Position numbers and translations under genes: made by a program | Source of the DNA: Ulota crispa | Taxonomy: Eukaryota > Streptophyta > Bryopsida > Orthotrichales > Orthotrichaceae | Direction: 5' to 3' | NCBI GenBank assembly: GCA_963920765.1 | Contig: OY987244.1 | Location: 32,061,678-32,125,677 of the forward strand | DNA length: 64,000 nt | In this document: one piece after another, positions 15,162 through 64,000 of the stretch | Layout of the letters: every line of letters begins with the position of its first letter | Numbering within the stretch: position 1 is the first letter of the stretch | The notes under the pieces: generated by a model | What the model was told of the DNA's origin: nothing | What the model saw: the letters and a program-made list of their open reading frames with translations, nothing else | The model's database searches: none

Positions 15162-15165
15162 TTAA

Positions 15166-15502
15166 CCCCTAAATGTTGAGGACATTTTTTGTCCTTTGGT
15201 TGTGAAAATTATTTTGTAGGACAAAAAAAAAATGTAATTTTTCACTTTATTTTTTCAAAAGTGATCAATCCATCATGGAAGGTAAAAAATAACCTCACCA
15301 AATACACTCATATTTTTAGGGAACCCAAATTGTGAGAAGATTCAAAAACATGATTTTAGGTCCATGCTACCCTTCTTACAATTTTCATGAGGACACCATG
15401 CACTATTAACTTTTAGGAACAATACTATAAGATAGGCACTTGTTGTAGCATTGTAGCCCTACATGGCAAGGCAGGGCACGGCTACCAGCCCGGCATTAAG
15501 GA
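15166..15502 (-). mobile_element. TTAA (piggyBac-like) MITE, family A copy 1
   Basis: Flanked by TTAA at 15162-15165 and 15503-15506. The left end is CCCCTAAATGTTGAGGAC, the right end is worn (CGGCATTAAGGA). It matches 31658-32002 and 52955-53316 in reverse orientation, including 'caattttcatgaggacac' and 'tctcacaattt'-type blocks. Just inside the left end is a palindrome, AGGAC/GTCCT around a T-run. Non-coding. Confidence 0.8.
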
Positions 15503-15506
15503 TTAA

Positions 15507-17070
15507 GGACTTCATAACATAGTACTCCACGTACATGACAACAAATAGATCTCATAAAGTAAAAGAAATGGCTTTGAGGTTATCTCCTTTAGATTCAACC
15601 ATCAACTCTAATTCACTTGATACTCGGCATTAAAGAAATCTATACAATTTTGAGTCCCAAAATCTCACCAATTAAAAAAGAATTCCTATTTTAATATTGC
15701 TTCTAGTTCCAAAAGGTATCACACTTTGACAACCCTAATATAATAGAAACATGCATCGAAAGTAATTGAAAACAGATCGTTAGCTTCGGACGTATAATTT
15801 TTTCTTCCAGCTAGATACCTCCTAATCCATGCACATAAACTGGGCAAAATCATTCCCATTCCTCCCAAAACGTTCCTACAAAATCTTTCAAATAAATGGA
15901 ACGTGAAATAAGTTACTGGAGGTCGATGTTTTCTTTGCTAGCTGCCCAATGTGAGAAGCAAAAAAATTCATGCTCAGAATAGTCCAAAATAAACAGCTAA
16001 AAAAATGAATGCAGTTGTCGATTTGAAACACCCTAGGCCCAAAACGTACAACTAGAGTGCATAACGCAAGTAAAGGTATGGAACACCTGACACTAAAAAC
16101 CACCACTTCTGTAAGGTTACACTCTTGCATCAACTTTAACAGGGTTTATCCAAAATTTGGATAGAATGTAAATCAGATGTGATAAAATCAAGGCAACGAG
16201 CATTTACCCAGCAACGAGTTTTCTTCTAGTGTGAACTTCTAAAATTCATAGTATCTTCCTTCCAATTCAGAAAACTACGTGTAACTTATATGTTGCAAGT
16301 ACATGATTTGAATCGCCGAAGTACTAAATGAATCCCATGTATCAAATGCACTCAAACGCCGGAAACAGGTCTGTCCATATCAAGAAAATATTTTTGTTTT
16401 CCATTGGTCAAGCGACACACCCTAGAAAGTATGCAGGCAAGGCAAAGAAAAATTAGAGACAATCATCCATGTGTGCACAATCACCCAAAAAAACTTACAA
16501 TTATTAGTACTTTTCACACAAATAACGGCGGAGCTAATGTTTCTATTTGAGGAGGATTTCACACTTGCATCCATCTTTTTCACCCGATTTTTTTAGTGTC
16601 AAGGTAGCCAGTGTTAAATGAGGTACAATTCTGGCGAAAATTCACACAAAAAAGGTTGCATGGTAAACGTTAACAACAAGGGTTCCAGACAAAGCGTATG
16701 CACAATGAAAGGTGAGAATGGAGCGAGTCGCGCTAACCAGACAGTGGCGGCACCGAATATTTGTGAAACAGCGCCCTCGGTCAAAGAAGCTCCCGCCCGA
16801 CCCCTTGCAGGAGTGATTGCTTGTGCTAATTATTGCAATTATACACATGCACGTACCCCAAGTTCTTAAGACAACCTCGCAAGGCATTACCTGCAAGTAG
16901 GAAATTATCTCCTACCTGCACTTACAAACACACGGGAGAACTAAAAAATATCACTTCAAAATGGACAAGAAGATGATGATCACTGTGTGGAGTAGAGGCA
17001 GTGGACACTAACTATGCAGCCCTGGTTTAGAACTGCACTGTCAAACTCAATTCCTCATTAAATGTTCGTA
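15507..17070. other. Intergenic and 3' flank of the CysRS gene
   Basis: No recognised gene. Bases 16600-16880 are richer in G+C and hold overlapping open frames of about 83 residues on both strands with no known resemblance. This could be distal 3' untranslated sequence of the CysRS gene, which ends at 17071. Confidence 0.4.
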
Positions 17071-20000
17071 TTATCTATCTTGTTCTAATTGCGATATCTG
17101 TGAGTCTATCTCCTGCAACTCTATCTGCATGTTCTGTAAAAACTGTGGATCTTTTGCCAAAAGCCCTTTGAATTTCTCATGATCAGCCGCAGCCTTCTTG
17201 TAACCTGCCTCCACTTTCTGCACAACAATGATATTCAAGCTTGTTAGCACACCATGTGTTTTGTGAAGACTGCTGCTGATAAAGTGCAAATCTAGCTCAG
17301 ATAGTAGTGAAACTCGTGATTGCTACAAAAACACGTCAAATCCAACGCCGCGTACCTTTTTGGAGCTCTTTGTCAGTTCGTTCCCGTCTTTGTCGTGAGA
17401 GGGCACACCACGCTCATCAAATGCAAAATCTTTGTACTCGTCTTTAGCTTTAAAAAGATCTTTCGGTGATATGGATGCCGCTTCCTGTTTCTCAAGCAAA
17501 TTTGCCTGTTTTGATGTTGAAAGTATGTTTAGAAAAGAGAAGACTCTCCAAAGCTGAGTAATTCAGAAGCTACGTTGTAAACAAATGCTAGAACATACTA
17601 AACTTGCGGGTGATGAGTGCAAAGGGTCTCTATGAAAATCAACCTTTCAACAACCATTATAGACATACGATGAGTTAGCAAAAGTTGTAATTATCAAAAT
17701 TAATTATGAATGTCCTGTAGAAGGTATTGTTCTTCACAAACAAGGCAATTGAGTAGAAATAAGTGTGAGAAAAAACAAGACCTTCTGCAGCCTTTTCTGC
17801 CGCAAGACACGCAGTTTTTCCTCCTTGACCTCTAGTCTCCGTTCGTCACGCTTTTGCTGTAGAACAACGGGATCGTCTAAACTCCACGTGTATGTGTTGT
17901 CCTCATCCACGACACACACTCCAACATCAACCATGTTCTCATCACGCTCCATATCCGTCAGCTCCATTAACTCTTCCTGGTAACCACAAGGGCATATTAT
18001 CACATGTCTAAAGACGTAACGACTCAAAACGACTTCCATAAAGTCTTGAGTCAACTGATTGAGAGAAACACTTGAGTCTAGCACAAAATTAATGACTTCA
18101 AAACAGAGATTTCATATACTCGGAAGCTTGTGTTTACTACAAAAAATAGCAGAAGAACAACTGAGTGAGCTCAGCAAAGAACACACAATACCTGAGAAGC
18201 ACCTCTCTTGCCTGCAGTTCTGACTTTGTCACGTAGTGACGCCCATCCCTCGACATAAGGAGCCTGAAAATCCTCAGCAAGGCACCAAATTTTATTAACT
18301 GCATCCAACTCAAGAACCAGATACTCAACACAAGCGCTGCACTCGTTAACTAAGAAGAGATAAATGGCCAAGTAGCATGCACTGAAAAATTAGCATACTA
18401 GAATATTTACCACAATAGTTGTCAAGTTTCCTCCTTGATTTCTGATGTTACCAAAACCGATTTCGTCATTATTTGCATCACATAAACCTGTCAACACCCG
18501 TTGAATGATCAGTCAAGCGAATTCCTATAATCAAACTGAGAATTAAGAAATCATGGATTCTGCATCCTATACAACTGCTCCAATCAACGCAGCAGAGTGT
18601 TGTCAAACTGGCGATTGATAACTTGCAAGTGAAGCAAAAATGCTGACATATTAAGCATGGGGAACCACATTATTAAGCAGAAGCATGTTTCAAAACTGAC
18701 TAAACATTAGCACCAAGTTCAACATTCTATATGTCTCTTGCAACAGCTGGGTTCAGTTTCCTGAATCATTACATGTTTGAATAAATAAACATCAATCTAT
18801 AAAAGTAGGACATACCAAATACATTGAGGATCTCCGTTACAAAAACTGCTGCATTTTTCAACAGCAAAGGTTGTGGTTTTGCATTTGCCTGCAGCCCAAG
18901 AATTGCAAGGAAGCACATGTTTCAAATGTACTTACCTCAAACTTCTTAAGTACAAAAAGATAATACCAAATTCCAAATCACATATTTCCCACACGCATGA
19001 CCAGTCAAAGTAGAGGGACATCACGCCTACATAGAAATGTAAAAAAAAGTACATGAGACGATATCAACTTACCAACTTGCACTTATCAATGTAGGAGTGC
19101 ACATCTCTGACCAAAGAAAGCAATTCTGAAACAGCACTTGCAGTGTCGAAGTTGTCTTCTAGACATTCACGCACCTAGAAAAACAAAAGGCAGTGAGCTC
19201 TTTTTGAATGCTACAATGAATTTGGACTTTCTCAAATCAGTACACATAATACTCAATAAATTAGAGTGTCCGGGTCAAACATAAAAAATTAATACGGGGA
19301 AATATTGAAGAATTGTTAGCTGAAAGCACTACAAGCGTCCAGGGAAAAAACATCACCTGGTCTTCGGCTTGATCAATTCTGTTGAACAAGTGCTTCTCAT
19401 CGTTCCCTGGCCTTTGAATACCTTCCACTGGCTGCCATATAGTGAAGTATTGTCAGAAATTCACTGATAATTGCTCACAAGTCCCTAAGGGGAATGGTTA
19501 GGAACATTCAAGGCAGCTTTCACACAAACGATCTCATACTTTTCAAACATAAGCACAACAAAAGCCTGCCATTTTCAACCAACCAAATAGAGGACGTAAG
19601 TAACCCAGATCTGAATAAAACCCTGTAGCTGAAAAAGACATGCAGCTCACATGGTTGGAGATAAATAAACAGACCAGATACATTTATTGCGACTGATGCA
19701 TAAGAATAGGGAATGTACGTACATTCTGCCTCAAATACGATTCTACTTTGGCAAAGAAGTTCTTGAACTTATTTTCCTTCCCAAGAGCCTCGTCCATAAC
19801 CGCTGTGCTATAATTGATCGACTGCAAAAGTGAAAACGATAAAATTGAGCATCCATACAGCTGCAAGTTGATACTTTGATGCTTTCGACATTGTAAAGTA
19901 CTGCACTGACAAATCCAATAATAAGAAAGCATTTGAGACACGGGTCTTCATTCATTGACATGAATACACGCTTTGCAGCAATAATTACCTTGTCCCAACT

Positions 20001-23000
20001 TTGAATCAAAAAAAGCATACGTAGCTGCCTTGCTGTGTATTTTGTCAATGCCTGCTCACAGAAACACCAAATTATCCAATCAATCCAAGTGCATATTAAC
20101 ACCCTGAGAAGATTTAACGTCAACACACTTTCATATGTAAAGGCAGTCAAGAACATAAGTGCCAAGTTCGATAAAAGCAGAGCTGTTAGGTATAAAAAGC
20201 AATCAGGCACAGATAAGAACCTTACCTCCTTGATTGTAATGAAGTTCTTCAAAGATTTCGACATCTTAAGGCCATCGATGGATAGATGCCCAGAATGAAA
20301 GAAGTATCTGACCCACTGCATTCATCAAAACCAGAAAGCTTATAAGCATTGCAAACAGAAACAAAAGTAAAACGTTACTCAAAGTCAAAAGTTTCGGTAA
20401 CTTAGACATCCAGCCTCATCAAATGCATGATTTTAATTTTTATCAGAGGAAACGGAGATGAATTGAACAAGTAGAGTCGTAAAAACACTAAAAAAAGCGA
20501 CTGAAAATATATCATCAAGCGTAAATTTCAGCACTAAATAAATGAAGTACTCTAAAGCACAAGCTAATCCAAAAGAAATAAAGGAAGGCACAAAATTCGT
20601 GTATATTTAAAACCGCAGGAGAGAGAACGCACTTCATGGCAATGAAAATATGCCTCAGCTTGAGCCAGCTCGTTGTCATGATGTGGGAACTGAAGGTCAC
20701 TACAAAAGACCCAAATATATGGACATTCAGTATATGGTGGTCAAAATCATGACAAGATGCCAATTGCTAGTGTTGACAAAGATCCACCAGATGATAACCT
20801 ATTACCAGAGCAAGTCTGTTCACTTACTTAAATAAATATTGCCGATGAAAGGCTGAAGCTAACCTTCTAAAATGAATTGGTGCTCAGTAAATTAAACACA
20901 GCAGAAAATTTGCAGAAAAGTTACTCACTGTCCTCCAGAGTGTATGTCCATGCTATCACCCAATATGTCACTGGCCATTGCTGAACACTCAATGTGCCAA
21001 CCCGGGCGCCCCATGCCCCAAGGGGACTCCCATGCAGGTTCCCCAGGCTTGCTCTTCTGAACAATACAAGTACAACAGTTTTACATGAATAAGGACTAAG
21101 ATTGCATCAAAAACATTAGCATTATAGCCTAAGGACTTAAAACTGAAATAAAGGATTGCGGAATTAGAAAGATACATATATCCAAGGGAACCAAATGACA
21201 AGAGTTTTCAAGGATCATCCAACAGGTTGAATCAGCCGAGGTTAAATCTGCATGAAAATTGAACTACCATCAACCACGAGAAGGTAAACTATCACCTTGT
21301 TCAGTGCATTTATATTACATGTCTCTTGCTAACTAAATGCAATTTTCACTGACTAAATGATGTTTGATACATTCCTGTCTCTTTAACAAAGCCATATAGC
21401 TACTCTTCAACAACGATTCAATTTGAGCTCACGTTATTGGTAAAACGACTAACCTTCCACAAGGCAAAATCGCAGCTGGTTCGTTTTTCAGAAGTCTCAA
21501 AATTTGACTCACTCTCAGATGCCAATAACGAACTGCCTACAGCAGCCGGGTTCAACTTTCCATACCGATGGCCTCCTTCTCTGAAATGGAATGGAAACGA
21601 GGTAAAGACAATAACTTTTTGTGTGCCTTGCACAAAGAATGTCGCATCAAACAACAACATAAGCATACGAAGCCCAGCAACACCAAATCTGCTCTCCACA
21701 TCAATCACATTTTCACCTAAACCAAGAAGCCATTATTTCACGAAAGTCCCACTAAATCCAGGTGAAGTAGGATCATATACCTGAAGGCTCTAGTATCAAA
21801 ATAAACGCTCCCATTCGCAACGTAAGCATATTTGTTTGCCAAAATGACTTGCACATATTCAATGATTTTATCCATGTACCTGCCACATAGAGAGCCACAC
21901 AAATCAGTGCTCTTTTTTCATCTTGCAATTTACAAGAATCAAGAAATTGGAATGAAGATCCTAAAATAATCAATCAGACAGAACTATACGTGTTTTATAA
22001 ACATACCTATATAGTCACGACAAGGATTGACAGAGGAAGAAACACGCTCAAGGTGTTCATACATCAATATAAAACCTCAGATGTTCACAAATACTCAATG
22101 CTTTGGATATACACACTATGGGCATAGATTTTCAGAAGCCCCTGAGTGTGCAGAGATTATTGAATCAAAAGGTACTTACTCGGTCACTCTCACAATGACG
22201 TCAGGATACCTACATCCCAAGCTTTTCATGTCATCCCAGAACTCATTTTCATACCTGCACATCCGAAAATGAGTTATTCAGGGTCATACATAGCTCGTAT
22301 GCCACATTTGTGTAATCACAAAACAAGGGAGCTACATGCTTTGCAATTGAATCAAGAAACTGGGCCACAAAGCTAAATGAAAGAATGAAAAAAAGCCCCA
22401 AACCCTAGAATAGGAATAATACTTGAGAGTGTGACTCTTGTAGATGGCATGATCCGTTACAGTTGCCCCCAGTTTAGCATCCAATTTAGAAGCCAAACTA
22501 TCAGCTGCACTGCTTCCCAAAAGTAAGTCTACTCCCTCCTTTTCACCTAACTTCATAGCTTCGTCTTTAAGACCGTGCATCAAATCCTTTGCCTCCGTGA
22601 TCTTGCTGACTTTCAGCTCCTCCTGCTTCACTCTCTATAACAACCATACGCAACACTTTCATACCTCAAGCACCTAGATTAGATATGCGCTAAGTTGCAA
22701 GACAAAAGAAACCAATTTTCCTATCTCAACACTCTGATTCAGAAAAAAATTCAAATTCAAAAAAATGCATTGCACTTGAGCATTACTAATGAACTAAAGA
22801 AAAGAAAAACCTAATCACTTACATCCGCTAAATCGTCTTTTTGTCTGGATGATGTGGCTTTGGCGAGCTCTTCCTTTGTATCAGAAATCTGCAACATAAT
22901 CAATACACGTTACAGACTAATATCAGACTATACAGAAAAGTAAGCTTGACGGAGAGCCAAACAAGTCATTACCAAAGGTCTGATCGTCCATGAGATAGAG

Positions 23001-23940: not shown

Positions 23941-24130
23941 TAGAGTCGGTCACAAGAGCCGTAGGAGCGTGCGACGACGTCGGAAATGAGGGCTGGTTTG
24001 CTCGGGCGGCGCCTTCACGGCCCAGGGCTTACAAAACGTGACTGACCTCCAAGCAACGTGCGAGGTACTCCGCATGAAAAAGTTAGCTGTCAACAGAGAG
24101 TCTCATGTGTCTAACTTCCTACCATTTGGA
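23941..24130 (-). promoter_or_regulatory. 5' flank of the CysRS gene
   Basis: The CysRS promoter must start in this 190-bp GC-richer stretch, since a foldback transposon begins at 24131. No TATA box was obvious. Confidence 0.4.
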
Positions 24131-24533
24131 GGGAATTGATAAGCGTACCACACCTTCTTGACTATCCCACCACACCCCGGGTAGATTTTAGATTTCAATC
24201 ATCAAAAATTTGAGAATTTGGAATTTAGATTTGGACTTAGAGACCTGGATTTTGTCTACAACCATAAAAAAATGTTATAATTGAATAACACCCAATGAAA
24301 AAGCTTAGCTTGGGGGAAAGTATTACTTTTACTTTTGTTTATAAAAAAGATAAGCTTTTTCATTATGTGTTGTTCAATTAGAACGTTTTTTGTGATTCTA
24401 AACCAAATCACAACCTCTGAGTCCAAATTTGAATTCCAAATTCTCAAATTTAGGTTTTTGATGGTAAAAATCTAAGATTTACCCTGGGGTGTGGTGGAAT
24501 AGTCAAGAAGGTGTAGTACGCATATCAATTCCC
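24131..24533. mobile_element. Foldback MITE, family S copy 1
   Basis: A 403-bp element starting GGGAATTGATAAGCGTAC and ending GTACGCATATCAATTCCC, with the two halves complementary along nearly their full length ('ccttcttgactatcccacca' on the left). The same ends and internal 'gattttagatttt' and 'aacaca/cccaat' blocks recur at 32401-33030. No clean target duplication survives. It may sit within the worn edge of the F-family copy that follows. Confidence 0.75.
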
Positions 24534-24536
24534 TTT

Positions 24537-24966: not shown

Positions 24967-25890
24967 TAAGTCTATACCTGGAGTATTTGTCAAATAATAT
25001 CAAAAGTGATGAAAGTCCTCGCGTGGCCACATTGTGGGGAGATCACTTAGTGTATCTATAACTAACCACGTGTGTTAAGTGATTTTTTGTCCTCTATTTA
25101 TTTTTAAATGAACTATGATTTCAACTTATAATTTTGAGCATTGTTTAATCAAGATTGTAGGATTCTATTGCCAAATTTTTCAATCCAAATAGTAAATTGA
25201 GTGATTTCTAAAGAAGGTTGAAAAATGAACTAAAATGGCATGTTTTGCAACTCAAATATTTATAAAGATCACATTTAGATGGCCATTACATCAATATTCA
25301 AGAAACATAAACTTTTTGTAGAGCCTCATTTTTGAGATTTTTTGTATTTTTAAACAAATTTTTCTTATATAGGATAAGGGTGTGAAAGTTATTTTTAACT
25401 TTGCAGTGTATCATTTTACTTCAAAATTTTGTAACTAATTATCATTAACAAATAAATTTACCAATAATTCACAACATAAACTTTCAAAGTAAGAGAATCA
25501 TCTCATATTTTTTTCTTTTCCTTTTATTTAAGTTTTAGAACATAAGATAGGGGGTCCAAAATCTTAACACACGTAGTTTTTAATTGACCCTCTAAGTGAT
25601 CTCCCCAAGGGCCACATGAGATAAGTTGTGAATAGTTTGCCCACAAATATATCACGTCAATGCCACATTTTGAAAGCACAAGATTATCTTTAAAATCCTA
25701 TACCTTGATCACAACATAAATTTGTGCAACTCCAAAGACAACAAAATGGTCTATTTACCATTTTTAGATTTGTCTTAATCAAGAATAGCATTTTCACCAA
25801 TTTTCTCCCTTGTGTGCTCCTCTTTGCAGCATCAAAGGCAAGCAATATGAGAGCTATGCACATGGAGCATAGGAGAGCTGTGCTGCCACA
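24967..25890 (-). pseudogene. Decayed 5' part of a CysRS gene (exons 2 and 1)
   Basis: Bases 24967-25032 align with CysRS exon 2 and its donor (23461-23530). The match resumes at 25618 with the rest of exon 2, intron 1 and a ruined exon 1, ending in the equivalent of the 5' leader near 25890. A MITE (25033-25609) splits it. Most differences from the active gene are C to T or G to A, as expected for methylated, silent DNA; for example 'ctggatccgtcc' became 'ttagatttgtct'. The start codon and reading frame are gone. Same strand as the active gene, so it arose by local duplication. Confidence 0.7.
25033..25609. mobile_element. hAT-like MITE inside the CysRS pseudogene
   Basis: A 577-bp element with inverted ends sharing TGGGGAGATCACTTAG, followed further in by a second matching block near 'acgtgtgttaag'. 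It is flanked by an exact 8-bp duplication, GGCCACAT (25025-25032 and 25610-25617). An 8-bp duplication suggests the hAT superfamily. The interior is AT-rich and non-coding. Confidence 0.8.
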
Positions 25891-25980
25891 AAAATATCAA
25901 AAATTTCAATTGCAATTCAGATGCCACAACAAACAGTTCAAATCCATAAACAGACAACAACAATTTATTGACAATGATTT
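25697..25980 (+). repeat. Direct repeat, unit 1
   Basis: About 280 bp, over 90 percent identical by eye to 26817-27094. It includes the decayed CysRS exon 1 and its leader. The two units bracket the exon 15-16 fragment, so they probably mark a local duplication step. Confidence 0.75.
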
Positions 25981-26341: not shown

Positions 26342-26816
26342 GCACAACTACATAGAAATGTAAAAAAAAGTACATGAGATGATATCAACTTACCAACTTG
26401 CACTTATCAATGTAGGAGTGCACATCTCTGACCAAAGAAAGCAATTTTGAAACAGCACTTGCAATGTCGAAGTTGTCTTCTAGACATTCACGCACCTAGA
26501 AAAACAAAAGGCAGTGAGCTCTTTTTGAATGCTACAATGAATTTGGACTTTCTCAAATCAGTACACATAATACTCAATAAATTAGAGCGTCCGGGTCAAA
26601 CAAACAAAATTTATATAGGGAGATATTGAAGAATTGTTAGCTGAAAGCACTACAAGCATCCAGGGTAAAAACATCACCTGATCTTCAGCTTGATCAATTC
26701 TGTTGAACAAGTGCTTCTCATTGTTCCCTGGCTTTTGAATACCTTCCACTGGCTACCATATAGTGAAGTATTGTCAGAAATTCACTAATAATTGCTCACA
26801 AGTCCCTAAAGGGAAT
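26342..26816 (-). pseudogene. Copy of CysRS exons 16 and 15 with their introns
   Basis: About 475 bp matching 19021-19490 at roughly 95 percent, covering exon 16, intron 15, exon 15 and part of intron 14. Splice sites survive. Of about twenty differences, most are C to T or G to A in this copy, several at CpG. It has no linked exons and cannot encode an enzyme. It is far closer to the active gene than the neighbouring exon 1-2 remains, so it is a younger duplication or was refreshed by gene conversion. Confidence 0.9.
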
Positions 26817-27094
26817 CCTAAACCCTGATCACAACATTTGTGCAACTCCAGAGACAACAAAATGGTATGTTTACCATTTTTAGATTTGTCTTAATCAAGA
26901 ATAGCATTTTCACCAATTTTCTCCCTTGCGTGCTCTTCTTTGTAGCATCAAAGGCAAACAATATGAGAGCTGCGCACATGGAGCATAGGAGATCTATGCT
27001 GCCATAGAAATATCAAAAATTTCAATTGCAATTCAGATGCCACAACAAACAGTTCAAATCCATAAACAGACAACAACAATCTATTAACAATAAT
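26817..27094 (+). repeat. Direct repeat, unit 2
   Basis: Second copy of the 25697-25980 segment, joined without spacer to the exon 15-16 fragment. It contains the same ruined CysRS exon 1. Confidence 0.75.
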
Positions 27095-28223: not shown

Positions 28224-29169
28224 CCCCTAAAGGACCAAGTGTGTTTTGTGAGAAAATTTCTTAGAAATTGCCAACTTTTAGTGCATTGCCCAAAATTGAA
28301 AATGAAAACCTTTTTTCTCAATTTTACCATAGAAAATTTTGTATAATAGATTAATTAATGTGTAATAAAAAAACTAGCTCATTTGACCTTGCAGATTGTA
28401 AGATTATAACATTTGAAGTGAGAAAAACAACTTTTTTTCATTTTTGCAAAACAAGGTCAATAGACTTTGAGCCCCCTTGGAGATAGATTTTGCTATACAC
28501 AAAAACAATATTTTTGACCATTCAAAATTATATGGTGTTAGGTTCATTCACACTAAAAAATTGTAGCAAATATAGAATCTAGCTTATTCTAAATCACCTT
28601 GTAATGTAAGGAGGTTCAGAAAATTGGGAATACACTAGTCATTTTTTCATGATTTCTTGTGCAATGAGGAAGTTTTTTATGTAAAATATGAACAGTGAAA
28701 AGCTAGAATTAAACATTAGGAATATGCAAAAAAAAATTCAGGAGCATTGGATTTATGAATTGAAAAATAATAGAGCCCAAAGTTAGAGGAAAATATTTTT
28801 TCTTGAACTTGCCTGAACATGGTTGATAAAATTTGACTCCTCTTAGAATGTGATATGAGAACTCAATTTTATTTTACTTTTGACAGTTGTACATCATAGT
28901 TTTTAGTTGTATACTTGCCAAATTTCAAAAGTTGATGACAACTTTAGAATTAAATTCTCTAAAGATGCCCAAATTGCCCTTGTTCAAATTCTGTAGCAGC
29001 ATAATTTTTGAACCAGGCATTCAATTGGGGAGAAAATTACATTTCCACTTGGAGGATACATATTTACACCTTATATAATAATTTTGAAAACATCCAATAA
29101 AAATTAACTCCACATGACCCTACCTAAATTCTCAAGTGGCTATTGAAGAGACACTTGGTTCTTTAAGGG
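28224..29169 (+). mobile_element. TTAA (piggyBac-like) element, family U copy 1
   Basis: A 946-bp element flanked by TTAA (28220-28223, 29170-29173). It starts CCCCTAAAGGACCAAGTGT and ends ACACTTGGTTCTTTAAGGG. It encodes no transposase. An inverted, more worn relative lies at 30790-31653. Confidence 0.85.
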
Positions 29170-29258: not shown

Positions 29259-29528
29259 CCCCTAAGCGCCCAGCCCATATTCATCAAAATCTAAACTCAC
29301 TCACACTCAATTCAACCAAATTGTTATCACAAACAAAATTCACAAAATCTAACCGTATTGAATGGTAGGTGAGACAAGCTCCAAAGTATAAGGAAAATGA
29401 CAAATAATTTGACCGTACCAATAGAAAGATTATAACAAGTCAAACAAGAACATTTTCATTTTTGAACACCCATTTGAAAACATTTTCATTTTTGAGCACC
29501 CCATTTTGAGGTCCTGGGTGCTCAAGGG
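29259..29528 (+). mobile_element. TTAA (piggyBac-like) MITE, family W
   Basis: A 270-bp element flanked by TTAA (29255-29258, 29529-29532). It starts CCCCTAAGCGCCCAG and ends CTGGGTGCTCAAGGG. Next to the right end is an 8-bp palindrome, GAGCACCC/GGGTGCTC, with a 14-base loop. Single copy here. Confidence 0.75.
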
Positions 29529-29532: not shown

Positions 29533-30107
29533 TACGACCAAATCAAATTTTGCAAAGTTGATACAAAAAACCTTTTCTTTTGTACATGGTTTGAGATATG
29601 ATTAGTGGTTAACCAAGTTCGTTGAATTCTGTACCCTCCTTTGATAATAGTACAGGATTGAAAATCTAAACCTCAAAAACCAAGTTAGAGAATTACAATA
29701 ATTCAATACCACCAATACATCCGTAAAACAAATTTATTTTTCATCAATGATCATCGGTTTCATAATTTATACTTTAAATCAGGCTGTTTGTTTGGATGTT
29801 TGAATGTTTGTTTGGATGTTTTCTTGTCACATTAAGATCTCCTGGGCTGTGTGGCCCGTAATTGCGTGCTTGGTACATTTGGAAAGCTCTCAGCAAGGAG
29901 GGGTGCCGGGGCTTGGTTGTGCAGCTTTTGGGCATACGATGAGAAAGTTATTGAATTTCAAAATTTATTATGGATTAAAAATTTAGAAAATTATTGATTG
30001 GCCTTAGACAATATCTATGTAAAAATATGGTAGAATACAAGTTTAGCTAAAGTAAAATTTGGATGTTCACTCAAAAATAAAGCAGAGTACAAGTTTAACT
30101 TGCAAGT
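29533..30107. other. Spacer between transposons
   Basis: No gene. A short GC-richer patch at 29850-29940 holds a 60-residue open frame of no recognised kind; 'gtttgtttggatgttt' is repeated in tandem near 29790. Confidence 0.4.
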
Positions 30108-30111
30108 TTAA

Positions 30112-30337
30112 CCCTTAAACATCCATAGGGCATAATATATACATTGACGTATAATTATCATTTGTTACCAATAAGAAATTTTAATTTGGGATCTCAAGTA
30201 GCTCACTAGAATTGCATTGATCTATTCTCCAACTTCTTTGTTGGTCTCAAATGTAGTAGAGGTGTGGATCCATTCCAAATATAAGAAAAATACCCCGTAT
30301 TGTATTGGTCGGAGCGGCACGCTTAGACGTTTAGGGG
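30112..30337 (+). mobile_element. TTAA (piggyBac-like) MITE, family B copy 1
   Basis: A 226-bp element flanked by TTAA (30108-30111, 30338-30341), starting CCCTTAAACATCCATAGGGC and ending GACGTTTAGGGG. Copies: 38598-38837 and, inverted, 63574 to the window end. Conserved core: 'tctattctccaacttctttg'. Confidence 0.85.
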
Positions 30338-30341
30338 TTAA

Positions 30342-30785
30342 CCATAGATGGCATGAGGAGATAACATGAGGGGCATGGAGGGGGTGAAAATTGGGCCAGC
30401 AGTACGGAGCCACACTAGTTTTTGTGAAAAATTATTGTATATTATAACTGGGACTCAATTTTTGACGTTTACATGTTTGACATCAGCAATGCAATTTATA
30501 GAATATTGCTAAATGTCATTAACTATTTCAAGTAATATCATTTTGTTTTATATTTCATCCTTTTAAAACGTCAAAAGCAGTTAACAAAATGTAATTTGTT
30601 CTATTCACAAATCAGTCAAACATCAAAAAGTTTGTTACTTTAGCATTTATGTATTTGAATGCTTGTAATTACAAAGCCATAAAGTCTTTGCTACAACAAC
30701 CTTAATCATATATTGGCTCTAATTGAAAATGCAACTATACATGGGATTGATTGTCTCCTAATTCCAAGTCCATGCTTCATATGAA
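30342..30785. other. Spacer between transposons
   Basis: AT-rich, no gene or known repeat seen. Confidence 0.4.
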
Positions 30786-30789
30786 TTAA

Positions 30790-31653
30790 TCCTTAAACGA
30801 CAAAAGTTTGTTCAACATTTTGGGTAGGTTCTTATGAAGTCAATTTTTGGTACAATAGATGTTTCTGAAATTTGAAAATAAGGTGAATACAATGAATATC
30901 TTTGTGTGAAAAAAAAAAAAAAACTCCAATCAAATGTTCAAGTAAAAAGTTATGCTGCCTAAAAGAATTTGGGCACCTTGGGCAATTTGGGCATCTTTGG
31001 AGAATCTTATGCTAAAACTCTCATTAACTTCTCAAATTTGGCATGTATGTAACTTATAAAATATGATAAAAATTTGTCAAAAAAAAATTGAGCTCTCACA
31101 TCACATTCTAAGAGGAGTCAAACTTTGTTAACTATATTTGGGCAGTTTCAAGAAAAAATAATTTCTTCTAACTTCATGCCCTATTATCTTTCAATTTTTA
31201 AATCCAAAGCTCCTAAATTTTTTTTTGCATGTTCCTGATGTTTATCTTTAACTTTTCTATAGTTTAGATTTCAAATAAAAGACTTCCTCATTGCACAAGA
31301 AATCATGAAAAAATGACTAATGTATTCCCAATTCACTAAACCTCCATGCATTACAAAGTGATTTAGAATAAGCAAGATTCTATATTTGCCGTTGAATTTT
31401 TTAATGAGTGAGCCTAATATCATATACTTGTGAATGGTTAAAAATCTTTATTTTGTGCAAAGCAAAAACCTCACAATTATGTGGTCAAATGGGCTGAAAT
31501 TTTTCTACACATTGCCTTACTTGCATTTATATTACAATTATGTATGGTTGAAATTCAAAAAAAGAGTTTTCACTTTGAATTTTAAATAAACCATCAAAAT
31601 ATGGTTGTTTTTGGTCTTATTTTTCTCAACAACACCTGTCGGGCTTTAGAAAT
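30790..31653 (-). mobile_element. TTAA (piggyBac-like) element, family U copy 2 (inverted)
   Basis: An 864-bp inverted relative of 28224-29169, with long shared stretches such as 'gaaatcatgaaaaaatgact'. Flanked by TTAA (30786-30789 and 31654-31657). The right-hand TTAA is also the left-hand TTAA of the next element, so the two are joined by a single target site. Confidence 0.75.
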
Positions 31654-31657
31654 TTAA

Positions 31658-32002
31658 CCCTTAAACACCAGGCTGGTTATCGTGATCAGCATGGCTACAG
31701 TTCTCTCTACAGTAGCAGCTAGTGCCCACCCTATTGGATTGTTTCTTGAAATTGCAAAAGTCAACGGTGCATTGTGCCCCCATGAAAATTGCAAGAAGGG
31801 CAACTACACCATGTATTTGAACCTTCTCACAATTTGAGTTACCTGAAAATATGAGTGCATCTAATGAGATATTTTTTTGCATTTCATGATGGATCATGTT
31901 TGTGATCACTTCTAAAAACAAATGAAAAACACCTTTTTCTCGTAGTATGGAACCTTTTTTTGGAGCTCGAGGACTAAAAATGTCCTCCTCGGACTTTAAG
32001 GG
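31658..32002 (+). mobile_element. TTAA (piggyBac-like) MITE, family A copy 2
   Basis: A 345-bp element flanked by TTAA (31654-31657, 32003-32006). It starts CCCTTAAACACCAGGC and ends GGACTTTAAGGG. A subterminal palindrome GAGGAC/GTCCTC (31969-31987) surrounds an A-run near the right end. Best-preserved of three A copies. Confidence 0.88.
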
Positions 32003-32006
32003 TTAA

Positions 32007-32392
32007 GGTGGTTTATATATTGAAAATAGATGTTACACAACGTATTTGATGTGATTTTACAGCTCGCACAAAAAAAAGAGATGACAATTAAGATTTGCTC
32101 ACACATGCAATTAAATTTCGAGATTGCAACAAATATGAAATCCACAACTTCGTAAACCAATAATAAGTATGCAATTTTAAACTTAAATTCCAAAATACAT
32201 GATAGTTTCCAAGAGTAGTCTCTAGAGTAATCGATCATTTTTAAAGAATATTTTGTAGCAGAAGCTTATTCATTCTCACGCAAGTTAGATTGTAGTGCAA
32301 GTCAAAAAGAGATTCAAGAGCTTCTTCCGCTTAGTGATTGTGTAGAAACTAGTAGTGGTGTTTCTCAAATTACGTTCAAGTCACAAAAATCA
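32007..32392. other. Spacer between transposons
   Basis: AT-rich, no gene recognised. Confidence 0.4.
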
Positions 32393-32400
32393 TAAAATAA

Positions 32401-33030
32401 GGGAATTGATATATGCACACAGGGGTTGATATTTGCACACCCCTGGGGTAAATTTTAGATTTTTACCATTGTAGAGCTAAATCTGAGAAATTTGAATTTA
32501 GTTTTGGACTAAGAGATCATGATTTAGTCTAAAATCACAAAAAAAGTTGCAATTCAGTAACACCCAATATAAAAGTTTAGCTAGGGGAAAAGTGTTATTT
32601 TTTTTTATTTTTTTGTAAAAAAAAAGAAATTTTTTCACTAAGTGTTGTTGAATTCCAACTTTTTTGTGGTTCTAAACTAAATCATGGTCTCTTGGTCCAA
32701 ATCTAAATTCAAAATTCTCAAATTTAGCTTTACAATGGTAAAAATCTAAAATTTACCCCAAGTGGGTGTGCAAATATCAACCTCCTGGTGTGCATTAGCA
32801 AAATTTTGAGCCCTCCAAAAGGCCCCTAACTCCACTTGAGAGATGTGCATATAGAGAAAAAAGTTGCCATTTCTGACTATCAAAATTTGCGACATCTGCA
32901 ATATGTCATATGATGTGCCACAATGGTTTTAGCATATTGTTTTTGTTCACCTCCATTATGTAGAGCAGTAGAGTGTTTTAGGGGCCCTCTGGAGGGTTCA
33001 AAATTTTGCTAATGGCATATATCAATTCCC
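32401..33030. mobile_element. Compound foldback MITE, family S copy 2, 8-bp target duplication
   Basis: A 630-bp element with ends GGGAATTGATATATGC and GCATATATCAATTCCC and an exact 8-bp duplication, TAAAATAA (32393-32400, 33031-33038). Inside lies a second foldback (about 32419-32790) closely related to 24131-24533, followed by another inverted pair, 'gcaaaattttgagccctcc' and its complement. The nested arms suggest a foldback that captured a second inverted repeat. Confidence 0.85.
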
Positions 33031-33038
33031 TAAAATAA

Positions 33039-33415
33039 ATCTAAACATGTAAAATAAAGTTGGAAATATAACAGCTTTGTTGTTCATCTTTTTAGCATGA
33101 GAGTAACTTCACACAATAAATTCAATGATCAAATAGTGACTTTTGTTGAGCTTATTTTTTGTATGTATCATACAACTAATAAACAATTAAGATTGCCATT
33201 TTTTTTTAACTACTAGAATCATACTGACTTCTTATTCAACACAAACAAGGTTTGAATTTGTATAAAGGTGGAGTCTCTTCATTGACCAATTCAATGAATT
33301 TGAGGAAATCAATATATAAATGCATAAGCCAATGAATGCAAAACTTCAAAAACATAAACCAAATGAAAGCATGAAGAAGGGTCAAATGCAAACATGCCAA
33401 ACTTTCTGAAGTTGT
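33039..33415. other. Spacer between transposons
   Basis: AT-rich, no gene recognised. Confidence 0.4.
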
Positions 33416-46104: not shown

Positions 46105-46152
46105 TTAAGCAATGTTGTTGCTCCATGAAACAACTCAAATCTGTTGCAATTA

Positions 46153-46547: not shown

Positions 46548-46674
46548 TACGTTGTTTCATTGAGCCAAAATTAGGTGCTTTCTTTAGATTTGCGTTGGAC
46601 TGCAGCCATAACTACATCAAGGGGGCGGTTCCAGGCAGAGTTTTTATTTTTTTTGTATTTTAGCTGGTAAGGTA

Positions 46675-48806
46675 AGGTAGGAGCACCCAATTGTAACACA
46701 AACCCCCAAAGTCCCAAAGTCTTGAAGTCCCCTCGGGGAACTTTTGGGATTTTGGGTAGGCTTGTGTGACCTCAATTTTTTACATGATTTTTTGAAACTT
46801 TTTTGTGAGTGTCTAGGAATCTATAAGGTTTGTGGGATGCAAAAACTCATGTGACTATGCCACACAATTCACAAGTTATGGGTTTTTTTTTTGCCAATAG
46901 CAGTTTGAGGGGCATCTTAGGCAAGGGAGAAAATATTAACTTTGAAAGGGGGGAGCAAGGAGGGGATGCCACATGTTGCTCTGGTGGTCCCCATTATTCC
47001 CCTTTCATTTCCAATTAGGAGGTCAGATTGGGCTTTGGAAGCTTCTAAATTTTAGAGCTTTTGAGGTTTTTAATTTTAATTTTAATTTTTTTGACATTTG
47101 AAGTACATGTTCATCTTCAAACACACCATTTGGATTTCCCATATCTAAAAACATGTGGTGGGAAACTTCACTAAAAAAAGTCATAGTGTATTTGCAAAAC
47201 TTGTCATATAGAGGCATTGCAATTTCTTTTAGGATGTGTTTTGTGTCTTCATTTGCCTTGAAAATTGGTTTGCAAAGGTCAAACTTGATTAACTATAAGA
47301 AAAAATTACAACTTTAAGGTCCATAGTGCAAAATATCAGCAAATGTCAGTCAAAGCCATCTGAAATTTTTGGGCACAACGGAAAAAAAAGACTTTTCCCT
47401 TCAAATGCTCACAATTTTCAATCCGTATGGTTAAATGTCATGACATTTTTACCACTTCTTCTTCTACAAGTGCATTACAATATCCTATGGTTAGATTTTC
47501 AAGAACAGCATTTTGTTGAAATTTTTGGTGAACGCAGCAATAGGGGCAGTTTTGAGTGGTTTTTGGCAAAAAATGGCCTTGGTAGTTTAGGGGCTAGCCA
47601 TTCTCTGACATCTAAAATTAAACCTAAAGTAGACACTCTTGCACCTAAACAAGACACAAATGCACCCAAACCAAACATGCAAGTTGACATAAGGGAATAG
47701 AAATTGTGTAGGTGGCAGTTTTTGATTAGGTGTGGCATGCTCTTTTTGTTGTTATGGCATGGTCTTATTGTTGTTGCTTTTTGTAAGGGTCTAGTGTTCA
47801 CAACAAGTGAATGTAGGGAGTTACCTTCAACAATTCATAATTTATTCATACAATTTAAAAAAAAATCCAATTTTTTTTGCTTGAGTTTGTGCCCATTTCC
47901 TAACAAGCACATGCCATTACATTCTCAAAAGAACCTCCAAATCACCACATCTTGGGGGGGGGGGTCATACCCTTTTATAATTGGATACCACCTATGATAA
48001 TGGGGTAATTAAATGGAAGATATTTAGATTTTTTAAGGTAAAATTTTCCTCCCTTTCTTTAGATAAAAAGCTACTTTAGTGTATTTTAGGGTACCCTATA
48101 TTTATTTCTAAATGGTTATACAACCTAACTTTTCAAACCCTATTTTTTTTACAAACCCAAAAGTATCTTAAGATTTTGTGTGTATACGATATTACGATGG
48201 GTTTATAAAAGACTTTGGCCTTTACAAGCATTTGAATTACAAAAAGACACTTTTGGGATGAGAAAACGCAACAAAGAACATGAAGCTGAAGCAAACAACC
48301 AATCAGTCCCACACCACACACAATTTTATACAAACAACCAATTATAGTTCGCCACCACACATAAGCTTAAGCAAAAAACCTATCACAATCCCACATCACA
48401 CACAAGCTTGCACGCTCTAGCCTAGATGTTGAAGTAATTTTGAATAAATTTCCCTCCATTCTTTTCAAAACTTGGACATAACATTCCTCATTTTTCATTC
48501 AAACTTGTCAAATAATAATAATCAAACTCATCCTACTAAACACTTTCTAGAGGATCTTATGTTTCCTACCCTATTTTTTTTCTACATAATTCAAAAATGA
48601 AGACATTATTCACCACCCTATTTTACATATAATGAAGTAATGGACATATTTTTGGTGCTATGGTATTTCTAACAAAAATATAAAATTTACCTCCAATGAA
48701 TAAAAATTGACCCTATTTTTTATCTCACTTAGTTTACTAAAAATTGGAGAGTCACCTTCCCAAGCACCACATCTAAGGTAAGTGTCACATTTGGGTGCTT
48801 CTACCT
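46675..48806. mobile_element. 2.1-kb TA-flanked non-autonomous element, family J
   Basis: Inverted ends AGGTAGGAGCACCCAATTGT and the complement of AGGTAGAAGCACCCAAATGT, with TA on both sides (46673-46674, 48807-48808). It encloses worn G-family sequence (about 47038-47594) and a run of G near 47954. The 124- and 97-residue open frames inside show no transposase motif. It is the longest AGGTAG element here. Confidence 0.65.
47038..47594 (+). repeat. Worn G-family (TTAA type) repeat inside J
   Basis: Resembles the right part of 50549-51467: 'tgaaatttttgggca', 'tatggtt', 'ggcaaaaaatggcctt', ending in a damaged TTTAGGGG terminus. No left end or TTAA remains. Confidence 0.5.
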
Positions 48807-48818
48807 TAGCCATATCCA

Positions 48819-48902
48819 ATTCTGACCACTGAACCTAATGCCGTTCAAATGTATGCTATGGGCACATTTTGAACGGCATAAGGTTCAATGATTGGAATTG
48901 GG
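48819..48902. repeat. Hairpin-forming palindrome between J and K
   Basis: An 84-bp inverted repeat running from CCAATTCTGACCACTGAACC to GGTTCAATGATTGGAATTGG with matching inner arms (GCCGTTCAAATGT and its near complement) and a loop of about 9 bases. It fills the gap between two TA elements. Confidence 0.75.
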
Positions 48903-48904
48903 TA

Positions 48905-49311
48905 AGGTAGGCACATCCATCAGCAACCACCTCCCAATACCGCAGTCTAGTTTTTGGCCGTTCTCCACCCATTGTTGAACCTAAAGTGGAGCACTAAATG
49001 CCACTTGCACAAGCAAATCTTGCCACATGTTAGTTGCTAAGTTGCTTTGAGGCAGTTGGGATTGGGACCATCCTATGCATTTATAGGAACACACTCAAGC
49101 ACTTCCAAGGGTAGTCTAGAGTTACCTATAGGATCCTTTGAGTTGCAACTTTGCTAGTTAATATAAAACATTCTACAATACTTTTTTCCACAAAAATTAC
49201 TTTCCTTGATAGCCTGTTGAAAGACTAACCCTACGGGTTTTTTTTTTGGAATTTTTCAAGACCTTGAGGTGCCCCAAAACCTTAAATGGTCGGGTATGGG
49301 TGTGCCTACCT
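48905..49311. mobile_element. TA-flanked MITE, family K
   Basis: A 407-bp element starting AGGTAGGCACATCCAT and ending ATGGGTGTGCCTACCT, flanked by TA (48903-48904, 49312-49313). Interior not shared with families H, I, J or L. Confidence 0.7.
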
Positions 49312-49313
49312 TA

Positions 49314-50540
49314 TGTCTACCTTAGAGCAATACACACCCCACCATGCATGCCAGCAAGTAAGGAAATTTTGGATAGAATTAAATAGTTTCATCAATGTGT
49401 GCACTTTCATCCATACAATTACTTATATTAGCATATCTCATCCAAAAGTTGGCAAATACGGTACAAACTTGGGGAGGTATTTAGCAAATCCATTCATTTT
49501 CATTCTAAATTTTTCTAGTGTTATGGTCGCCAGGCTCCTTTTGAGGTAAGATTTAGGCAAATTTTTGGTAAGAAAATTTTCTCCGGTTCTAAAGTTTTAT
49601 TATTGTTTTTGTCAAGGTAGAGCAACCTACGCCCTAGAATGCAGGCAAGGAAGGGAAATATGTCTAAAATTAGAACAAATGAATGACACATAAAAGTTCA
49701 TCCAAAAACATGCTAATATAAGCCACTTTCAACCAAAATTTGGCAATTTGGGATTTGTTCTAGGAAGGATCTAGTAATTTCATCCAAATTCTAAGACATA
49801 TTTCTTAGAGTAGCTATTGCCAGCAGACTTTTGTGATAAGATTTAGGCAAAAGTTTGCTAAGAATTTAAACCTTGGACAATTCACATTATGTCCTAAGTC
49901 CAATTGAAATATGAGAATTTGATTAGTGTAGAGCCAAAAGGTGGGACTTGGCACTTCACACTATGTCCCAAGTCCCATGTCTCGGTTGCTTACATGGCAG
50001 CACTTTTTGGAAGTTTTGGCACCAAAGAAGGTGGATTTTCACTCAAGGTTTGGGCCAACCATTTTGCTAGATCCAATTTTTAGCCAAAGTACCATCAAAA
50101 GTTTTGCATATAGTATTCATAGCTTTCTTTAGAAATTGCATTTTTCTTTTGATACACCAACTAAGTTGGGATCTAGCATTGCAATAGGACTTACAAAGAT
50201 GGGACAAGGATCATACTCTTAAACTAGCCCTAAATATTGCATTTATGTTGCCTTAATAATTAGATTGCTTCTGAAAAGTTACCTTGTTTACCATGAAAAG
50301 TTATCTTATGACTTTGGCTACTTGGAGGCCCATAGAACTCTCTAAATACTTGAATTTCACATGATTTACAACTTGCACATAGCAGTTGTTGTTAAGTCCA
50401 TATTTCTGTTAAAATTAATTATAAAAATAATTAATATTGAGGAGAAAAACTACAGTATAAATAAAAAATTATAAAGTGTAAAGTGTCAAGAAATTAGTAT
50501 GGAGCATTCTGAATGTAGCATCTAGTGGAGTCAGTTTACT
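49314..50540. other. Spacer with a worn M-family (hAT-like) repeat
   Basis: From about 49871 to 50236 the sequence starts TTGGACAATTCACATTATG and carries 'ggaagttttggcaccaaag' and 'ggtttgggccaacca', shared with 52660-52904 and, inverted, with 59270-59510. No gene seen. Confidence 0.4.
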
Positions 50541-50548: not shown

Positions 50549-51467
50549 CCCCTAAAGGACCATTGTCCCTTTGAGGGACAAATGGGATTTTGGGCATGTA
50601 CCTATGGCTAAACTACTTTGCCTAATTTTCTAAAACTTTATTAAAGGTGAGGAATTCAAAGATCTGCGTGGGAATGTAATTTTTTCTTCATTCTGACATT
50701 TATTGAAGAAGTTATGCATGAAAATCTAGAAAAAGTTGCTCCTTGAGCAACCAAAAACTTCTTTGAAATTTTCATTTTTTTCAAATAAAAATCTGAAATA
50801 GGTTCTTTAGACTTATACAGACATGGGGAGCTTTGAATCATTCAATTTTTATAAATGAGATGAAAGTTATGAAGAGTTTTTATTTGTAGGCAGTTCTAGA
50901 TACTCTACTCTAAAATAAACTTTGAAGTCCTTTATTTTACTCAATTTTCAAATTTTTGGAAAAAAAACAAAACCAAAGGATGTGGATTGTTTATCACAAC
51001 ATTATAACCGTTGGGATTTGCATTTTTCATTTTTATAATTAAATTCTTAACAATTTAGTGTTTTGACTCATTCTCCTTCTTTTTACTTACTATTTTTTCC
51101 CATGTGTTGTATAGTTCCAATTGATTTGAAAATTCTCTGACACATACCTAACTTGGTCTCCTACATGGGAAAATAAACCTCAACTTTGTGTAAAGTAATT
51201 TTTTGCTCTACAAGTGGTCCAAAGCCTTATGAAATTTTTGGGCAATAGGAAAAAAAAATAAAAAAAATCCGCAATTTAGATGTAATATCTCACTCATTTT
51301 TGTGTAGATTGAGTTGATTTTTTTACCACGTGTACCTCTCGTAGTTTACTGTAAGATCTTATGGTTGAATTCTTGTAAAACACTTTTTTCCGTACCACTG
51401 TACTTGCTTCCCCAAAAGTGGCAGTTCTCTGTGTTTTCACAGAAAAAATGGCTTGGTCCTTTAGGGG
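50549..51467 (+). mobile_element. TTAA (piggyBac-like) element, family G
   Basis: A 919-bp element flanked by TTAA (50545-50548, 51468-51471). Both ends read CCCCTAAAGGACCA inward, 14 bases perfect. Close to the left end is a palindrome TTGTCCCT/AGGGACAA with a 3-base loop. No transposase. Ends nearly identical to those of family U although the interiors differ. Confidence 0.9.
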
Positions 51468-60627: not shown

Positions 60628-60785
60628 TGCGCGCCTTGCTGCATGCAATAGCTGTAATGTTGATTCTCTCTGTCCGTCAATAAGCTAGGGTTTTGACCAT
60701 CTTTACTGTTTCTTCTCCAAACACTGCCATCATGGTTAAAAAATGACCAATTTCATTAACCATGTTGTGTAAATCATTATTTAGA

Positions 60786-61095
60786 GGGAAAATTTCATGG
60801 ATACCCTTGGAGTTTGCAATATTTACATAGGTATCTTACTTTTTCAGATATTACACAAATATTCTTGGACCAAACTTTTCATGCATTTATTTTGTTGTGC
60901 GTGTCATTTTCATTCTTCCTTTGTGCGTACATTGCTTCTTCTTTTTTCATTACATTCCCTTCTTCAACACTAATTATAAAGAAAGTATGAGCACAACAAA
61001 TTAATGCCTAAATGTTATGATCCAAGAGTATTTGTGTAGTTTTTGAATAGTAAGGATATGTATGTAAATATTGCAAACTTCAGTCCATGAAATTC
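60786..61095. mobile_element. Mutator-like MITE, family O copy 2
   Basis: Starts GGGAAAATTTCATGGATACC; the right end is worn ('gtccatgaaattct'). Interior matches 5134-5440 and 63064-63363 ('agatattacacaaat', 'ccaagagtatttgtg'). Confidence 0.6.
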
Positions 61096-61266
61096 TAAAT
61101 AGGGCCAATAATCATACCGCATCATCAGGAAACCAAATAATGGGCTGACAGAGAAAAGTAAATAAAACTAGAAAAAAAGTAATTCTAATACGAACTACTC
61201 AAAATTGTTGCCATGAGGTCCAGTTGGATTTAAGGTCCAACTGGATTTAAGATGCAATTGGCTCTA

Positions 61267-62857: not shown

Positions 62858-63063
62858 TATATATGACACCCTTCATGTGCCGATGTTCTTTGAAACTTGT
62901 ATTGTAAGGAAAAGGAGAAAAAACGTTATGCTGTTTACAATTGAAATAACTTACCATGAGTTTCAAGAATTCATGGAATAAGGGTTAGCTGAAAATTCCA
63001 AAAGTACGGCTATAAGCCAAAGAATACTAAACTTGAAGTCTCATAAAGAAACATTAAATACAA

Positions 63064-63363
63064 GGGAAATTTTCATGGATACCCTTGAAGTGTGCACCCC
63101 GGCTTATTCAGAAATATCACAAATACCCTTGGATAAAAAAAAATAAGCATTTGTACGTTTTGTTGTGCATGCAACTTCTCCTCTTCCTTTGTACAAATGC
63201 CTAACAAGAAAGAAATAATGTGACACAAAGGGAGAAGGAAATGACATGTACAACAAAATAAATGTCTAAATTTTTCAATTCAAGAGTATTTGTGATATTT
63301 CTGAAAATGCAAGGGTATATATGAAAATATTGCAAACTTCAGGGGTATCCATGACATTGTCCC
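63064..63363. mobile_element. Mutator-like MITE, family O copy 3
   Basis: A 300-bp element starting GGGAAATTTTCATGGATACC and ending GGTATCCATGACATTGTCCC, flanked by an exact 9-bp duplication, TAAATACAA (63055-63063, 63364-63372). The youngest of three copies. Confidence 0.88.
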
Positions 63364-63573
63364 TAAATACAAATGGTTGTTTTTATCATAACCACGTGAA
63401 TTGAGTGCTGATGATATCTGATGTGCTTTAGAAACTTTCTCACATCTTTTGATTTTAATTTCCAATAACAACTATATACTTCATTCGATTCCATTATTTA
63501 TTTGAAAATTGTAATGGAGAGCATTTACAATTTTTATTATCTCTACAAATTAACCAGTTTTGCTGGACTTTAA

Positions 63574-64000
63574 CTCTTAAACATGAGAATGGCCATTTGC
63601 AACCATTACAATACAAGGTACTTTTCTTGTATTTGGATTGCATACACACCTCTATTACATTTAAGATTAACTCCTAAAGGATGTTGTTGTTTTGTATACA
63701 CAGACGCTTGTGTTGTATATGGATGGGGTATTTGGATAGCACTTGAATCCCATTGGAGTAGTAAAATTCAAGCCAAGTCATAAACATAATACTGGTCAAC
63801 TAGGATTTTTTGGGGAATTTTTTACATTTGTCGTAACATTTTTTTTTCAAGTACTAAATGGTTCTCCTACAAATACATACAACACTTTTGGTAGGCAACA
63901 TCCTTTAGGGCAAAGAAGTTGGAATATAGATAAACACAGTTCTAGTGCGCTATTTGAGATTCCAAATTAAAATTTCTTATTGGTAGCAAATGTCAAATAT
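63574..64000 (-). mobile_element. TTAA (piggyBac-like) MITE, family B copy 3, carrying C, cut by window end
   Basis: Inverted family B element: TTAA at 63570-63573, then CTCTTAAACATGAG, the B core, and 'ccaaattaaaatttcttatt' near the window end. It is interrupted at 63671-63910 by a family C element; B resumes with 'caaagaagttgg'. The far terminus lies outside the window. Confidence 0.75.
63671..63910 (+). mobile_element. TTAA (piggyBac-like) MITE, family C copy 2, nested in B
   Basis: A 240-bp element starting CTCCTAAAGGATGTTGTTG after TTAA (63667-63670) and ending GGCAACATCCTTTAGGG. The right TTAA is lost ('caaag' follows directly). Uninterrupted version of 38502-38979. Confidence 0.78.

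Follow-up and report, generated by a model that had tools for sequence, protein, structure and literature searches.

The window analysed here is a 64-kb stretch of DNA (C3:32061678-32125677) from an assembly of 274.8 Mb in 157 contigs. Its host-type genes are a Kelch-repeat frame on the plus strand (10992-11801), a short minus-strand match to the class I (C) tRNA synthetase domain (19743-20321), and a 615-aa minus-strand frame that matches GH16 close to its end (35809-37656). Direct repeats were also seen, pairing 19022-19321 with 26343-26642 (96%) and 25720-25978 with 26836-27094 (94%).

Small elements lying between TTAA tetranucleotides are distributed along the window, and those described below make up 11.7% of its length. 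The leftmost, a 337-bp element without assigned strand (15166-15502), has TTAA at 15162-15165 and 15503-15506. A 946-bp plus-strand element (28224-29169) has TTAA at either side and is 81% related to an inverted 864-bp element on the minus strand (30790-31653), which likewise lies between two TTAA sites; both 15166-15502 and 30790-31653 have a worn right terminus, whose position was set by eye. Between these two relatives lie an unstranded 270-bp element (29259-29528) and a 226-bp plus-strand element (30112-30337), both flanked by TTAA on both sides. The 864-bp element shares the TTAA at 31654-31657 with an unstranded 345-bp element (31658-32002), which matched 15166-15502 at 74% over 195 bp by BLAST. 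A 395-bp plus-strand element (33420-33814), whose right terminus is short by about 8 bp as judged by eye, shares the TTAA at 33815-33818 with a 911-bp element on the same strand (33819-34729). Further right, a plus-strand element of about 234 bp (38502-38979) is split by a nested 240-bp plus-strand element (38598-38837), which has TTAA on both sides and is 80% related to 30112-30337; the right TTAA of the host has become TTAT. An unstranded 645-bp element (43616-44260), a 906-bp plus-strand element (45199-46104) and a 919-bp plus-strand element (50549-51467) with the 14-bp terminal inverted repeat (TIR) CCCCTAAAGGACCA are all flanked by TTAA on both sides. The last, a 240-bp plus-strand element (63671-63910), has its left TTAA at 63667-63670 and has lost the right one; it is the uninterrupted relative of 38502-38979 and sits inside a reverse-oriented relative of 30112-30337 and 38598-38837.

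The first-pass annotation had described fourteen TTAA-flanked elements. When these were matched by length with a tolerance of about 10 bp, 12 of the 14 were found with both ends between TTAA, and the thirteenth is the interrupted 38502-38979. The remaining one, given as 362 bp, could not be upheld: it is probably the one that ends at 63910, where the unit is the nested 240-bp element without a right TTAA. About nine families with unrelated interiors had also been proposed; an all-against-all BLAST comparison separated 10 families, apart from a few short weak matches, and their interiors are indeed largely unrelated. Other elements of the window, at 24130-24534, 32436-32768, 60785-61105 and 63096-63316, resemble hairpins, their inverted arms being long but imperfect (52 nt at 92% in one example); TTAA was absent directly outside the arms of these four, and they perhaps belong to other families of MITEs.

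The boundaries of the elements were examined over many copies, as the first-pass annotation had proposed, and copies of three window families stop at TTAA while their flanks differ. The 919-bp family has at least 39 further copies genome-wide at 86-90% identity. Over 30 copies, the agreement with the column majority was 0.937 inside the TTAA and 0.39-0.40 outside it, the TTAA columns themselves being 0.90-0.97 conserved and the 14 bp of the TIR identical. With four copies set aside because they matched only part of the query (L029, L041, L047 and L048), 24 of 26 full copies had TTAA at both sides. The mean pairwise K2P distance of this family was 0.109 (range 0.079-0.141), which suggests one old burst; the true spread is larger, because the 30 copies read out of 40 scored were the best-scoring ones and thus biased to similar copies. 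For the other two families, the queries were extended by 150-bp flanks. Element 45199-46104 has at least 39 further full-length copies at 92-93% identity, and with the self match and five short extra pieces left out, 34 of the 39 started and 32 ended no more than 4 bases from the TTAA edge. Element 33819-34729 has at least 39 further copies at 87-92% identity, of which 35/39 started and 33/39 ended within the same distance. One match, C7:5845316-5846385, covers query positions 1-1073 at 90% and comprises 33819-34729 plus part of its left neighbour 33420-33814; either the pair moved together or the segment was duplicated.

Related sites lacking the element were sought as well. For each of 60 candidate elements, the two flanks were put together with a single TTAA between them and compared with the examined loci; the sites found are related copies, not alleles. 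Nine of the 60 joined queries found a junction-spanning match in another locus, a number to be read with the fact that the queries are not independent, because several lie in the same repeat families. In eight of the nine, one or more junctions are ungapped, and for six of these eight one or more subjects carry an exact TTAA; the ninth, L056, gave gapped junctions only. The clearest case is L050, for which all four related sites, 80-91% identical, read TTAA. Across the ungapped junctions, TTAA was exact in 11 of 28, and the rest read mostly TCAA, TTGA or TTAG, also GTAA and the like. Such variants are as expected of related copies at 75-90% identity, but they are not proof. Within the window itself, the host 38502-38979 with its nested element removed aligns to 63671-63910 at 79% and ungapped at the junction, and the uninterrupted copy reads TCAA at the corresponding site. 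Together with the copy boundaries, the empty sites support insertion at TTAA with duplication of the TTAA.

A profile search of the genome contigs for PF13843 (DDE_Tnp_1_7), in which 116 of 528 first-look candidates were scored, gave at least 120 matches on C1-C11, each above the cut-off. None of the matches listed falls in the window, as the first-pass annotation had stated of transposases in general, and the nearest listed one is on C3 at 32,451,054. The same annotation had placed the source elsewhere in the genome or among extinct elements; transposases are present elsewhere and are mostly decayed. Internal stops were absent in only 10 of the 120 matches listed, several of these 10 being partial, so that most transposase sources look dead. 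All 10 open pieces submitted to Pfam matched PF13843; five other open pieces near transposases had no Pfam match. The L012 piece matched piggyBat (9c0f, E 2.6e-24) and Trichoplusia ni piggyBac (6x67, E 7.6e-20) in the PDB. The catalytic aspartate triad of T. ni piggyBac is D268, D346 and D447, and in the L012 alignment the aspartates at the DE, DN and GVDxxDQ motifs are in place. The L009 piece also matched piggyBat and T. ni piggyBac in the PDB; its third motif reads GVN, and judged by this residue the enzyme is probably dead. L010, L012 and L013 carry all three motifs within one open piece, and the other pieces besides L009 are too short or broken to show them all. piggyBac transposases carry a C-terminal cysteine-rich zinc-binding domain, and a C..C...C...C...H string near the end of the piece was seen in L003 only.

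Pairwise protein identity among 18 of 20 loci (L004 and L007 left out; pairs with fewer than 100 aligned residues unscored) ranged from 25 to 84%. Grouped by eye, the transposases appear to form about six groups, mostly 25-50% identity apart and with edges that are not sharp. Divergence of this order would speak for long residence or several separate arrivals, and against a single recent transfer. No relatives of the L012 transposase were confirmed in viral contigs. The match at C1:1180709, listed without stops, was considered as a domesticated transposase gene and rejected, since the DNA of this locus (L011) is in pieces and no single open piece spans the match. Several PF13843 matches are paired on opposite strands with equal or near-equal scores (C2:36765124 with 36779670, C7:18203169 with 18223004, and C10:676128 with 785346), which suggests inverted segmental duplications or assembly palindromes. 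A long tandem array, with HTYIHTYI repeats in translation, adjoins the transposase copy of L003 (2961-3680).

Both ends of a transposase-bearing element could be placed at four loci: L020 (5,222 bp) and L017 (5,300 bp) have TTAA on both sides, L010 (5,648 bp) is flanked by TTAA and TCAA, and L012 (about 5.5 kb) has the mutated flanks ATAA and ATGG. L017 matches L020 in two pieces that cover query bases 151-5380 and run precisely between the two TTAA sites; of 12 candidates, no others were long copies. Short palindromes lie directly inside the TIRs of the 50549-51467 family (GTCCC/GGGAC), and GAGGACACATCGTGTCCTC is a short palindrome just inside the terminal repeats at the L017 and L020 ends; these may be extra transposase-binding or hairpin sites.

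The small elements could be connected with the transposase-bearing ones in two ways. CCCYTNARG-like termini are common to the window families and to PF13843 elements (L017, L020, L010, L012 and the right ends of L009 and L016), in line with the proposal of the first-pass annotation that a piggyBac transposase with matching ends should be sought in the same genome; some of the PF13843 matches lie inside such TTAA/CCC-ended elements. Beyond the termini, the two ends of 33819-34729 align to those of L012, over 59 bp (85%) and 532 bp (66%). The left 209 bp of 33420-33814, TTAA included, match the left end of the L010 element at 70% (E 8e-22), and its right end, minus about 8 terminal bases, resembles by eye the right ends of L009, L010 and L016. 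These alignments identify the two window elements as shortened relatives of elements in this genome that carry a transposase. A tie of this kind holds for 2 of the 10 window families, the other eight being connected by ends and target site alone; among the loci examined, the CCCCTAAAGGACCA end type, common in the places listed, had no sequence tie to a transposase-bearing element.

The superfamilies Kolobok and Sola3 also duplicate TTAA, and some or most of the families might belong to one of them and be piggyBac-like in looks only. The ten window families being largely unrelated inside, with two of them tied to a PF13843 element, leaves room for this, but CCCYTNARG-like termini are found on PF13843-bearing elements as well while the interiors differ, and we regard such an assignment as quite unlikely. 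We conclude, with a probability of about 94%, that the window elements are non-autonomous piggyBac transposons (MITEs), at least two families of which are shortened relatives of DDE_Tnp_1_7 elements. The statement of the first-pass annotation that TTAA duplication with CCC termini is the piggyBac pattern thus gains from copy boundaries, related empty sites and PF13843 elements with matching ends, and its interpretation is supported; its novelty alone has to be lowered.

As non-autonomous piggyBac transposons, each element would keep short TIRs (about 14 bp, beginning CCCYTNARG) and some subterminal sequence recognisable by a piggyBac-type DDD transposase, and would have been inserted at TTAA with duplication of that site. 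The transposases would act in trans, cutting at the element ends and leaving a TTAA overhang; the element would then be pasted into another TTAA, and the donor site presumably rejoined without a footprint. Most of the source elements would now be dead. Nested and abutting elements point to repeated rounds of insertion.

The abutting elements could mean that new insertions favour the TTAA of an existing element end and so build chains. Pairs with one common TTAA occur in the window at 30790/31658 and 33420/33819, further cases were seen in the flanks of L034, L038, L040, L051 and L053, and the left neighbour of 33819 recurs beside the second copy at C7:5845316; yet exact abutting ends were counted at 16 sites, where independence of the two sides of a TTAA would give about 13, an expectation resting on a TTAA total extrapolated from the window. 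Preferred insertion beside older elements was rejected on these exact ends and is, in our judgement, improbable. With up to two mismatches allowed, abutting ends occur at 342 sites genome-wide, and the expectation of about 13 applies to exact ends only.

The end signal itself was counted in the window and over the whole genome. In the window, TTAA stands directly before all seven exact occurrences of CCCYTNAAGG, before 16 of 42 at 9/10 or better and before 22 of 242 at 8/10 or better, every other preceding tetramer numbering at most 6 in this last class. When 12-bp inverted ends starting with CC were paired at distances of 60-1500 bp with at most 3 mismatches, TTAA flanked 12 pairs at either side, three being alternative pairings of the same ends, versus 0-1 pairs for each of 15 other palindromic tetramers. 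Among 324 TIR-like pairs 150-1500 bp apart in the examined sequence outside L024-L053, 25 had equal flanks, and these were TTAA in 20. Genome-wide, CCCYTNAAGGACCA occurs 10,930 times versus 2 for a reversed-pattern control, with TTAA preceding 9,292 of the exact ends and none of the control, and the looser TTAACCCYTNARG occurs 25,842 times versus 174. The TTAA-flanked, CCC-ended elements of the first-pass annotation are therefore confirmed. The reading that the pattern reflects chance or composition, which that annotation had named as a possible refutation and for which one may cite the commonness of TTAA in an A+T-rich genome (387 in the window), is excluded by these controls, by the other tetramers and by the copies ending at TTAA, and its probability is negligible.

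The density of TTAA-preceded ends was compared among samples. The window has 11 ends that are exact (9/9) and 20 at 8/9 or better (17.2 and 31.2 per 100 kb); five 8-kb stretches at round coordinates (40 kb) have 4 and 15 (10.0 and 37.5 per 100 kb), small counts in which three of the five stretches hold all 15 ends; and twelve stretches around transposases (97 kb) have 6 and 20 (6.2 and 20.7 per 100 kb). By this measure the window is not exceptional. The exact rate at round coordinates corresponds to about 27,500 ends genome-wide, near the 25,842 counted, although it is based on just 4 events, and the rates at 8/9 or better extrapolate to about 103,000 (round coordinates), 86,000 (window) and 57,000 (transposase stretches). 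By extrapolation there are thus roughly 60,000-100,000 recognisable ends per 275 Mb, that is, 30,000-50,000 elements, a range being given because the sample around transposases is lower. Six two-ended candidate elements cover 2,519 bp, or 6.3%, of the 40-kb round-coordinate sample. All examined loci together hold 61 candidate pairs, at least two of them spurious (L017 1423-7263 and window 33420-34737), and their coverage of 11.6% is inflated, the loci having been chosen for containing an element.

These estimates let us lean, with modest confidence, to the view that piggyBac is a dominant, long-resident DNA transposon of this bryophyte, probably a moss. Its some 30,000-50,000 elements would account for between several per cent and about a tenth of 275 Mb, and they would be supplied by about six transposase groups, most of them with 25-50% of residues in common. 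piggyBac is regarded mainly as an animal transposon and an insect-derived tool for genetic engineering. Its abundance and diversity in a land plant are the surprising part, and a land plant with piggyBac as a major part of its genome would extend the known host range less in name than in weight. If true, plant-resident ends and transposases would be open to study, as would tests of how the superfamily flourishes in one plant lineage while nearly absent elsewhere.

The elements resemble the piggyBac superfamily, represented by T. ni piggyBac and piggyBat, in their TTAA target, short CC-rich inverted ends, DDD transposase with DE, DN and GVDxxDQ motifs, and small non-autonomous relatives alongside. 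They differ in the plant host, in the internal stops of most listed transposase copies, in non-autonomous copies far outnumbering transposase matches, and in length, the four two-ended transposase elements being about 5.2-5.7 kb, whereas T. ni piggyBac is given as 2472 bp (PMC10140906). piggyBac TIRs are described as 12-19 bp long and starting with CCYT (PMC10175614). The 14-bp TIR of the 919-bp family falls within this length; as to the start, the CCCT-starting families agree letter by letter, and the CCCC-starting ones deviate by one extra C. Like the TTAA/piggyBac MITEs of insects and angiosperms, the window elements are short, TTAA-flanked and without coding capacity, and an angiosperm review names PiggyBac among MITE superfamilies (PMC10004981).

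The first-pass annotation had considered piggyBac little reported in land plants. As to occurrence this has to be toned down, since table 2 of PMC4438587 counts PiggyBac with the superfamilies that every group under study possesses, among them land plants; the abundance seen here remains notable. A 2024 review counts PiggyBac among plant class II superfamilies (PMC10794571), and a paper of 2025 describes its occurrence in plants as occasional, with red algae as the group named (PMC12732532). The repeat table of the fern Ceratopteris richardii has a PiggyBac row of 1230, 122417 and 0.00 (PMC6890710), which we take as copies, bases and per cent; the superfamily is thus also present in that land plant, but at trace level, compared with several per cent in the samples here. 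Among titles and abstract openings, which cover the literature incompletely, no paper on piggyBac in mosses, liverworts, Marchantia or bryophytes was found, and the matches for the name in a moss genome paper (PMC10619864) were the word 'piggybacking'. The kind of element is already known, and its scale in a land plant is the notable part.

We take the host to be a bryophyte and probably a moss; a plastid lacking rpoA is typical of most mosses. The rpoA domain PF01000 had no match on the plastid-like contig C157 and had matches on C2 and C5. C157 itself carries rbcL, a frame downstream of it that is presumably accD, and an rps11-type match.
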